A stretch of 64,000 bases of DNA from Chiridota heheva (Eukaryota > Echinodermata > Holothuroidea > Apodida > Chiridotidae), in the NCBI GenBank assembly GCA_020152595.1, contig JAIGNY010003204.1, forward strand, positions 210,001 through 274,000. Direction: 5' to 3'. Under the pieces are notes generated by a model that made no database searches, had not been told where the DNA came from, and saw only the letters and a list, made by a program, of their open reading frames with translations. This document shows, piece after piece, positions 14,850 to 23,800 of the stretch; the first letter of the stretch is position 1; each line of letters begins with the position of its first letter. A program made the translations under genes and the position numbers.

Positions 14850-17800
14850 CTATATATGGAAAAGAGCAAACAAACTAAAAGTGAAAAATGAAATATTCCT
14901 TTCTAAGAGCTAAATAAGAGGCTCTCTGATTCCCTTTACCACCATAGTACACATGGACTCTCTCCTCTAATAATAATAATAATAATAATAATACTACTAC
15001 TAATAATAATAATGAGAGGTGCTTATGTAGTGCCTTCAATGGCACAGCCTCCTCAAAACACTTTACACTTCTAAGGCACAGCCTCCTTAAAGCACTTTAC
15101 ACTTCAAAGGCACAACCTCCTAAAAGCACTTTACATAAGGCACAGCCTCCTCAAAGCACTTTACATAAGGCACAGCCAGCCTCCTCAAAGCACTTTACAC
15201 AAGGCACAGCCTCTTCAAAGCACTTTACACAAGGCACAGCCTCCTTACATTTCCAGGGAACAGCCTCCTTAAAGCACTTTACACATGGCACAGCTACCCT
15301 AAAAGCACTTTACACTTCAAAAGCACAGCCTCTTCAAAGCACTTCACACATGGCACAGCTAGCCTCCTCAAAGCACTTTCATTTCTAAGGCACAGCCTCC
15401 TCAAAGCACTTTACATAAGGCACAGCCTCCTCAAAGCACTTTACACAAGGCACAGCCTCTTCAAAGCACTTCACACAAGGCACAGCCTCCTTACATTTCG
15501 AGGAAACAGCCTCCTTAAAGCACTTTACACACGGCACAGCTACCCTAAAAGCACTTTACATTTCAAAAGCACAGCCTCTTCAAAGCACTTCACACATGGC
15601 ACAGCTAGCCTCCTCAAAGCACTTTCATTTCTAAGGCACAGCCTCCTCAAAGCACTTAACACTTTAAAGGCACAACCTCCTAAAAGCACTTTACATAAGG
15701 CACAGCCTCCTCAAAGCACTTTACAATTCTAAGGCACAGCCTCTTCAAGGCACTTTACACAAAGCACAACCTCCTAAAAGCACTTTACATAAGGCACAGC
15801 CTTCTCAAAGCACTTTACACTTCTAAGACACAGCCTCCTCAAAAACACTTTACACAATGCACAGCATCCTTAAAGCACTTTACACTTCTAAGGCACAGCC
15901 TCCCCAAAGCACTTTACACTTCAAAGGCACAACCTTCAAAAGCACTTTACATAAGGCACAGCCTCCTCAAAGCACTTTACATAAGGCACACAGCCTCCTC
16001 AAAGCACTTTACACAAGGCACAGCATCCTCAAAGCACTTTACATTTGAAAGGCACAACCTCCCCAAAGTACTTTACATAAGGCACAGCTTCTCAAAGCAC
16101 TTTACACTTCAAAGACACAACCTCCTCAAAGCACTTTACGTAAGGCACAACCTCCTCAAAGCACTTACACTTCTAAGGCACAGCCTTTTCAAAGCACTTA
16201 TACTTCTAAGGCACAGCCTTTTTAAAGCACTTATACTTCTAAGGCACAGCCTTTTCAAAGCACTTATACTTCTAAGGCACAGCCTCCTCAAAGCACTTTA
16301 CATAAGGCACTCCTCAAAGCACTTTACACTTCTGAGGAACAGCCTCCTCAAAACACTTCACACAGAACCCAACCATCCACAAAATAAGGATGTTCTCAAG
16401 TCCCCTGAATTATAGGCTGGACATCGCCGTGGTGCAGCAAAAAATGATGCAACATGTCCCCCACCACATTATAAGCATGCTTTGTCCTCTTAATGTCCCA
16501 CTTTTAAAGTCTCTGGTATGACTCGACCCAGACCTCCCAGCTGAAAGACTCACAAAGCCAACATGTCCAATACACGTATCCGCAGATCACATCAGATGCT
16601 CAAAACATCTATTCAACATCACAAATTTGCATATTTTACTGCAACCAATAGGCCTTAATCATCAAAAGAAGCTGTAGAATTGCCAATTTTTAATCTGATT
16701 TTAATAAAAGTTTGTTCTTTTCACGACTCCTGATAAAAGTAGATAAGAACTATGTTATTTCTACAATATTGGGGAAAAAATGTTGGAACAATTCATTAAA
16801 ATTCTGAGAGCTACATATGTAACTTCCTACCCTTCCCCTTTTCAACTTCTTGGTATTTTAACCTAATTAAAAAAAATAACAATAGTTAACAATGAAAGCT
16901 GATAGGAGGGGGAGGGTGGGGTAAAATAGTAAAGTAGGGGAAGGGATCACTGGAGGCATCATGAAATTTTACATTGTCCTAAAACTATTAAAAATAATAA
17001 TTCCAACCTTCATGATTCATGAATTTGGAATAATATAGAAGAGGAAAGTATAGGTCCATAAAAAGCGGTGCATACTTTGACAAGTTTTGTTCAATATATC
17101 AACGGCGTAGGAACAATTTCTTTTCTTGGGGAAGAGGGGGCTGAAAGTTTATTTACCATGATTCTCACCCACCCTGCCCCCTCATTCAAAAGTCTCTTTT
17201 TTGTCCCATCAATTTTGACAATTGTGGGAATTTTGTTTTTTAAACAAAGAATAGATAATTAAGTTAGTATAAGACACAACATACGTGGCAGTACATACAT
17301 GCTCGCAGTTCAGTGACCTATCACCTGTGTGTACACATACTAACTGCATGTTGTATGTTACGCAGGCGCTACGTCGCTGTACACGATGTAATGCTACATT
17401 TTACGGCCAAGTGTGGTCAATTCAAATGATTAAAATTGGAGATACTAAAATAGGACCCGGGATCGTGCTGAGGTATTATAAAATTCCGCCCCATCACATT
17501 TTTGACTCGGAGGCTAAAGCCCCCAGTCCCCTGCTTTCTACGCCTTTGCAATATAGTGTTGGTGTGAAAGTTTGACTATGGAACACAAAGTAAATTATAT
17601 ATTGACCTTTGTGGTGACCATTCCATGATATCTTTGTGGTACACCATTCCATGATACCTTTGTGGTGCACCATTTCATGATACCTTTGTGGTACACCATT
17701 CCATGATACCTTTGTTGTGCACTATTCCATGATACCTTTGTGGTACACCATTCCATGATACCTTTGTGGTGCACCATTCCATGATACCTTGGTGGTGCAC

Positions 17801-20800: not shown

Positions 20801-23800
20801 ATTCCATGATACCTTTGTGGTACATCATTTCATGATACCTTGGTGGTGCACCATTCCATGATACTTTTGTGGTGCACCATTCCATGATATCTTTGTGGTA
20901 CATCATTTCATGATACCTTGGTGGTGCACCATTCCATGATAACTTTGTGGTACACCATTCCATGATACCTTTGTGGTGACCATTCCATGAGACCTATGTG
21001 GTGCACCATTCCATGAGACCTTTGTGGTGCGCCATTACATGATACCTTTATGGAGCACCATTTCATGATATATGTTCCAACAAGTTTTGTCAAATAAATT
21101 GTTGGTGTCAAAGTTTCTTTGACTACAAATCAGAAAATAAATCATATATTGACCTTTGTGGTGCACCATTCCATGATATATGTTCCAACATATTTTGTCC
21201 AGTATATTGTTCATGTCAAATTTTCTTTCACTACAAAACCAAAAATTAATCATATATTGACCTTTGTGGCATACCATTCCATGATATATGTTTCAACAAG
21301 TTTTGTCCAATATATTGTTGTTGTCAAAATGTCTTCTAAAACAGAAAATAAATCATATACTGACCTTTGTAGCACACCATTCCATGATACAATGCCAGCA
21401 GAACAAATGGCCACAAGGCGTTGCCGTAGATTGTTGCCTTTTCTCAAGACAAAGTGAACAGCGCCATCTAGAGTCAGTCGATGTTGAATCTGATTCCGAG
21501 CTGTAATAAAACAGATTAAAAGAAATGAAATATGATTCACTAGTCATTAACAACTTTCAAAATATATCAAAAACAAACTTTTCACAAACAAGAAGAAAAA
21601 CCTACTTTTCGTTCTTTGAAATCTGCTCTACATATGCTAAAGAATAAGCGGCAAAGCATATCAAATGTGCTACGCCAGCCAGGATTGAATTCTACACTGA
21701 TCTTTAAAAAGTAATGTAATGACGTGTTTCTCAATGTGCCACGCTGTCAAATCTAATTTTGTAACAAGTTTATTTTCCATAATGAAAATCTGAATTTGAA
21801 TTTACAATAACAACATAAAAAGCTTTTTTCTACTCGATTGCTATTCATAATTGTGAGTTGGAAATGTTCTTATAATCAGAGATAAAACTTGACATATCAT
21901 ATTACCACACTGGCGATAAATCCTTCAGTTTTAATTCAATATGGCTTGCATAAACAATGACGCCCAGGGTTTAAAACTTGTAACCGAGAACTCCGGCGGG
22001 GAGTGAATTAATGCTTTGTAAATTTGCAAGTGTATGTTTACATTACATAATGTAATCACAATGTAAACATTTACTTTGCACTACATCTCCATTTTCTTCT
22101 TCAACTTAGAAATTTCATTGAATCAAAATATAGAGCAAGGCTTCACTAAGTGTACTAAATTGATGAAGGTAAACTTTCCACAGGAAATAACAAATGGGGT
22201 GATTTAATTGTCACGAGGCACCGTCCATACTACTCTAAACACGACACAGAAATTATATCATGCCCCAGAGGAGTGACACAGAGGACCTCATCGTCACTTG
22301 CATACATTTTGACAGATATTGAAATACACAGGGATGCCTACACAGGAAAAGGCAGGGGGAGGGGGGGGGGGAAGAGGGGAAGGGGGCAAAACTTAGGAGG
22401 GCACTTTTTATGCTGCCATGCACCTTAGTCCTAACATCATGGTGATAAAAAATCGGGTGTGCATCCACCTGAAAGTGATAAGGCAAAAATGACACTTTTT
22501 ATGTCAAAAAAAGCCATTATTCATAGCATAAAACGATTTTTGAGTATCAAAACCATTCTTTTTATTGGAAGTGGGGAAATAACGCTTTAAATCAAGTATG
22601 AAAAAATCCCAAAAGGGTACTTCTTGGCCCGTGAGGTTAAGGGCATCATTGGAATACATACATACAGTAGATTGATTAATGTTGCAAGATTTACAAAGAT
22701 TTCATGGAAATCCGCTGAGTTCATATGAACATGTAGAGATTTATATTCACCTGTAGGAACTTGAATGATTTATATTCACCTGAAGGAATTTGAATGATTT
22801 ATATTCACCTGAAGGAACTTGAATGATTTATATTCACCTGAAGGAACTTGAATGATTAATATTTAGCTAAAGGAACTTGAATGATTTATATTCACCTGAA
22901 GGAACTTGAATGATTTATATTTACCTGAAGGAACTTGAATGATTTATGTTCACCTGAAGGAACTTGAATGATTTATATTCACCTGAAGGAACTTGAATGA
23001 TTTATATTTACCTGAAGGAACTTGAATGATTTATGTTCACCTGAAGGAACTTGAATGATTTATATTCACCTGAAGGAACTTGAATGATTTATGTTCACCT
23101 GAAGGAACTTGAATGATTTATATTCACCCGAAGGAACTTGAATGATTTATGTTCACTTGAAGGAACTTGAATGATTTATATTCACCTGAAGGAACTTGAA
23201 TGATTTATGTTCACCTGAGGGAACTTGAATGATTTATATTCACCTGAAGCAACTTGAATGATTTATGTTCACCTGAAGGAACTTGAATGATTTATATTCA
23301 CCTGAAGGAACTTGAATGATTTATATTCACCTGAAGGAACTTGAATGATTTATATTCACCTGAAGGAACTTGAATGATTTATATTCACCTGAAGGAGCTT
23401 GAATGATTTATGTTCACTTGAAGGAACTTGAATGATTTATATTCACCTGAAGGAACTTGAATGATTTATGTTCACCTGAAGGAACTTGAATGATTTATAT
23501 TCACCTGAAGCAACTTGAATGATTTATGTTCACCTGAAGGAACTTGAATGATTTATATTCACCTGAAGGAACTTGAATGATTTATATTCACCTGAAGGAA
23601 CTTGAATGATTTATATTCACCTGAAGGAACTTGAATGATTTATATTCACCTGAAGGAACTTGAATGATTTATTTTCACGTGAAGGAACTTGAATGATTTA
23701 TATTTACCTGAAGGAACTTGAGTGATTTATATTCACCTGAGGGAACTTGAATGATTTATATTCACCTGAAGGAACTTGAATGATTTATTTTCACCTGAAG

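Follow-up and report, generated by a model that had tools for sequence, protein, structure and literature searches.

A minisatellite in human IFI6 (also known as 6-16 or G1P3) reportedly supplies splice donors, as Turri et al. are said to have found in 1995. The same minisatellite is named as a source of splice donors in the accessible part of a paper that cites this work (PMC4526556). In amphioxus, minisatellite-like tandem repeats known as mirages span exon-intron boundaries of Adh3 and of the globin genes BflGb6 and BflGb9, with units of 10-160 bp (PMC3087553, accessible text). An amphioxus mirage is also described for troponin C, and PGBD5 has repeats of 60 and 108 bp over splice sites (PMC3902484, accessible text). 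As far as the accessible text of these two papers goes, mirages leave splicing undisturbed (PMC3087553; PMC3902484). Human paralogs in segmental duplications have internal tandem repeats at exon-intron boundaries, with 27 intron modifications given in the accessible part of the report (PMC2812944). The earlier note on the DNA analyzed here, which held that no minisatellite of this kind had been described, was thus mistaken: amphioxus mirages (PMC3087553; PMC3902484), IFI6 and the boundary minisatellites of human paralogs all precede it. Among the matches listed in our literature searches, mirages came from lancelets alone, the IFI6 precedent came through papers citing Turri, and none of those on echinoderms or hemichordates reported a boundary minisatellite.

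PEX10, an animal gene required for building peroxisomes, carries an array that is most likely a further, functionless case of the known mirage kind. This brings a peroxisome gene into the range of mirage minisatellites, with about 135 copies and probably in a host other than a lancelet. The window (the whole stretch of 64,000 nucleotides analyzed, C3091:210001-274000 of a 1.10-Gb assembly with 3744 contigs) is 37.6% GC. PEX10 lies on its minus strand, with exons A to F spanning 59104-14775; they were found with a human protein as the query, and splice edges were taken from the DNA:

59032..59104, minus strand: PEX10 exon A (5' edge uncertain)
57795..57871, minus strand: PEX10 exon B
43270..43521, minus strand: PEX10 exon C (Pex2_Pex12 domain)
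34471..34631, minus strand: PEX10 exon D
21365..21500, minus strand: PEX10 exon E, first part of the RING
14775..14849, minus strand: PEX10 exon F, last part of the RING and stop

Joined in phase, the six exons encode 257 amino acids with no internal stop. Pfam identifies Pex2_Pex12 (E 9.9e-34) and RING models in the joined exons, and Peroxin-10 (7t92_C) is the sole PDB sequence below 1e-12 for the product; two RING-bearing NCBIfam models are both far under cut-off, and an Rfam scan gave 0 matches. Exon 1, with the start codon, is located 6.7 kb outside the window (in L024; window-extended positions 70697-70583). Its donor is CTG/GTAAGT (slash, splice site), phase 1, and by eye it runs out of frame into exon A (59104) at the visible acceptors, with an apparent slip of 1 nt, caused either by an indel of the assembly or by a genuine frameshift. 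The earlier note would have been refuted if these exons belonged to a pseudogene and an intact PEX10 lay at another place. This is improbable: the assembly has three Pex2_Pex12 matches, the PEX10 locus and two others, which we take to be PEX2 and PEX12, and no second PEX10 copy was seen among the Pex2_Pex12 matches and array-unit matches of the assembly.

The array sits between the two RING exons of PEX10. The minus-strand sequence at the exon E 3' end and donor is ACAAAG/GTCAGT, and from exon E into the intron the order is the 103-bp original, two 108-bp copies, the 26-bp units over 3466 bp and, last, part of a parent copy:

21363..21364, minus strand: GT of the true 5' splice site (AAG/GTCAGT)
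21286..21388, minus strand: original segment, 103 bp, with the last 24 nt of exon E, the true donor and the first 79 nt of the intron
21178..21285, minus strand: parent copy p1, 108 bp
21070..21177, minus strand: parent copy p2, also 108 bp, with the exon end and about 80 nt of intron
17604..21069, minus strand: 26-bp minisatellite, 135 tiles, unit ATCATGGAATGGTG(C/T)ACCACAAAGGT (24 nt of exon end plus GT)
17545..17629, minus strand: last unit, then a partial copy of the parent intron

The tandem unit spans the exon-intron boundary either with 24 exon nt and the GT (26 bp) or with the 24 exon nt and about 80 intron nt (103-108 bp). The two 108-bp parent copies are identical to the 103-bp original at 89/103 and 93/103 positions. 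TRF reports a 108-bp array at 21044-21389. It gives the minisatellite at 17605-21070 when the period is 52 or 78 bp, and its row for 26 bp stops at 20399. The stretch 21069-17604 divides into 135 tiles, and the 119 that are full 26-mers come in 26 distinct forms. Much of what the earlier note had read from the letters stands: all units are sense to PEX10, and traces of the 103-108-bp parent flank the array, with the original, p1 and p2 upstream and the partial copy downstream. Its statement that the unit equals the exon end plus GT holds as to derivation from the boundary, but the unit is close rather than equal, with 24/26 positions matching in one main form and 23/26 in the majority form. 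A chance match is ruled out, given that the highest score anywhere else than in the repeat is 18 and the maximum in 20 shuffles is 20. The unit does break two bases into the intron, so that a typical copy, AAG/GTATCA versus the real AAG/GTCAGT, lacks the donor's intronic half. Within the array, the GT shows no special mark of selection: column 25 varies among the 119 full tiles (15/119), but columns 3, 7, 15 and 18 vary too.

Searched by pattern with at most 2 mismatches, the complete assembly has 120 matches to the unit, on a single strand among the matches listed. The window alone holds 120 by the same measure, and the unit is therefore private to the PEX10 locus. The search revealed no second haplotype of the array in the assembly, and a scan of viral_contigs for the unit gave 0 matches.

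We are rather confident of the following reading as a whole: a mirage minisatellite arose from the PEX10 boundary in two steps and is tolerated and functionless, with the donor chosen by nearness and strength. A segment of 103-108 bp across the 3' boundary of exon E was tandemly duplicated into the intron, as the copies show. One parent copy, most likely a sister of p2, would then have lost 82 nt of intron, and its residual 26 bp would have been amplified into the copies now seen, presumably by slippage or unequal exchange. We place the amplification inside a p2-like copy because one array variant is exactly the exon part of p2 and the downstream partial copy is nearest to p2. A point against the reading is that the end of the unit is missing from this partial copy by some 20 nt. 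The partial copy aligns over 80-84 positions with a score of 94 to p2 versus 69 and 63 to the others, and is identical to p2 (the copy at 21177) at 70/80 aligned positions. Tile identity peaks at lag 9 (0.28) and lag 18 (0.23), with values of 0.02-0.18 at the remaining lags from 1 to 30, which is a higher-order pattern of 9 units (234 bp); later rounds would have copied blocks of this size. The grading of copies from exon to array fits the two-step history (boundary duplicated, sub-part amplified) that the earlier note had suggested. Since the copies are intronic and come after the original boundary, they do not alter the coding sequence and can be tolerated. The array itself would serve no function, and a tolerated intronic minisatellite without one is the most likely reading.

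The PEX10 array resembles amphioxus mirages in its boundary-spanning unit, in its many copies with splice signals and in the graded turnover within the cluster. Its units of 26 and 103-108 bp are inside the 10-160 bp given for mirages in the accessible text (PMC3087553). It differs in that a shorter second unit, excised from the first, grew to 135 tiles, far above the mirage copy numbers stated in the accessible text (6 and 3 units in BflGb6), in that this unit stops 2 nt into the intron, and in that the host is probably not a lancelet. Human paralog repeats share minisatellite expansion at boundaries but, in the accessible part of the report, average four 30-bp units and come with changed splicing (PMC2812944). 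IFI6 is alike in that a minisatellite carries splice donors; there, repeat units are used as donors, whereas the copied donors of PEX10 are truncated candidate sites. Sequence scores from human tables speak against strong use of this type in the PEX10 array.

Donors were scored with a human donor table (PWM) and a human U1 end, which may not be those of the host, and on these the real exon E donor has a PWM score of 4.50 and U1 pairing of -8.4. The sequence AAG/GTAT(C/T)A, found at 107 of the 112 AAG/GT sites of the repeat, has values of -0.05 and -5.7. None of the 327 GT sites in 21363-17600 reaches the real donor on either score, and decoys score below it because the unit is cut two bases into the intron. 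Thus, the earlier note overstated the copies as rival donors. Its figure of about 130 decoys between the RING exons is right in location but somewhat high in number, as AAGGT ends 109/135 tiles. As a yardstick, sites at or above the real exon E donor by PWM number 35/796, 7/483 and 43/843 in three other PEX10 introns; for the rest of the array-bearing intron the count is 0/243 by PWM and 3/243 by U1. Strength alone cannot forbid decoy use, because the real PEX10 donors A (PWM -0.14, U1 -7.1) and D (2.34, -4.8), which are real by phase, are about as weak. By these scores the array copies would be weak donors rather than dead ones, so position beside the exon must count too. The true donor would be chosen because it is nearest to the exon and because the copies are without the intronic donor half, with strength computed and choice in the cell presumed.

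That the decoys act is improbable. Some transcripts would take decoys, add VSI and a stop, and lose the second half of the RING (reading through past the true donor does give V-S-I-stop, as the earlier note had predicted). In this account, nonsense-mediated decay would lower PEX10 output to a degree that depends on the length of the allele, in parallel with human IFI6, whose minisatellite units serve as donors. The number of tiles ending in AAGGT favors it, as do the overlap of decoy strength with the weakest real PEX10 donors and, from partly accessible sources, the IFI6 precedent of minisatellite units as donors. The absence of any site better than the true donor among the 327 counts against it, and so do the amphioxus mirages, reported with normal splicing in the accessible text (PMC3087553; PMC3902484). 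We consider it very improbable that the array is an assembly artefact, far shorter or absent in the animal. It is known from a single assembly, but an artefact is at odds with 26 distinct full units in a 234-bp higher-order pattern, with parent copies flanking the array on both sides, and with sister cases at two other loci (L033 and L052, see below). Hardly credible is the idea that the array, as a reserve of weak sites for U1, keeps a long intron full of repeats from being polyadenylated too early (telescripting). The 107 AAG/GTAT(C/T)A sites are mostly spaced at 26 bp with modest predicted U1 pairing each (-5.7), but this pairing is weak versus -8.4 for the real donor, and the idea has no tie to poly(A) sites and is wholly conjectural.

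Arrays such as that of PEX10 are graded copies of a real donor beside that donor, and donor choice (strength versus position) is therefore directly testable with ordinary RNA reads. The value of the PEX10 array is as one among several natural arrays of this sort in one genome. Intron gain by tandem duplication of sequence that carries AGGT has also been discussed (PMC3443670). The genome is rich in such arrays, which speaks for the reading as a tolerated mirage: tandem repeats make up 42% of the window and 79% of the boundary-array intron. After merging, the window has 23 arrays >300 bp, one of which is touched by one of the six PEX10 exons A-F. A second array in that intron, degenerate and with a 30-bp unit, lies at 15041-16364. 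The first PEX10 intron has a 39-bp array of about 103 units at 60653-64000, which continues to about 64670 in L024.

We surveyed 30 loci for each of two domains, Helicase_C (71 matches) and homeodomain (86 matches), with 1.5-kb flanks, covering exon edges within about 100 bp of the domain matches, so that array counts are lower bounds. A tandem array lies within 60 bp of the match at 6/30 helicase loci; at L029 and L032 it adjoins the match and is not inside. Copies overlapping the coding match were flagged at 4/30 helicase loci and 0/30 homeodomain loci. In a boundary check of the four, L033 and L052 were kept, L028 was dropped because its array ends short of the acceptor AG, and L038 was dropped because its boundary query matched itself only. 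L028 has units of about 119 bp on the 5' side of the match that reach up to the acceptor. Donor-side boundary arrays like that of PEX10 are thus found at 2/30 helicase loci, and at 0/30 of the homeodomain loci sampled, extending mirage-type arrays to two more loci of the genome:

1895, 1991, 2177, 2372, 2552, 2653 in L033 (helicase gene), sense: six further copies of the exon end with the start of the intron, over the threshold
1725, 1839, 1953, 2067, 2181 in L052 (helicase gene): five extra copies, 114 bp apart

The two helicase arrays speak for the reading as a tolerated mirage, and the lack of any at the homeodomain loci speaks against it. In L033, GTAAGT is kept in all six copies found, and the -1 G is changed to A in 4/6. 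Two of the six equal the real donor by PWM, with U1 pairing of -11.6 versus -11.9 for the real site; over the array, 7/60 GT sites reach the real PWM value and 0 the real U1 value. With copies equal to the real donor by PWM, strength can hardly be a general rule for donor choice, and L033 is a better test of that choice than PEX10. In L052, the donor GT is lost at +1 in 4/5 copies, through two different changes, and 1/31 GT sites reach the real PWM value but none the real U1 value. In a comparison of 4 copies, 8/84 intron columns vary, and of all 114 columns just the +1 site and one other show two derived states. The GT loss may comprise as few as two events, because a repeat of two units could account for the T-A-T-A order. 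That boundary minisatellites recur in this genome with their decoys disarmed (by truncation in PEX10, GT loss in L052 and the -1 change in L033) strikes us as rather unlikely; if true, the arrays would be natural libraries for donor choice by the spliceosome and would point to selection against decoys.

The COX1 family is absent from the assembly. Contig C1072 carries homeodomains, three of which we take to be Hox9/10-like and Hox11/13-like, the last one inverted; on this pattern, the host is probably an ambulacrarian and not a lancelet. In hemichordate Hox clusters the terminal pair of ambulacrarian posterior genes is inverted, and amphioxus has 15 Hox genes, according to the accessible text of PMC3707753.
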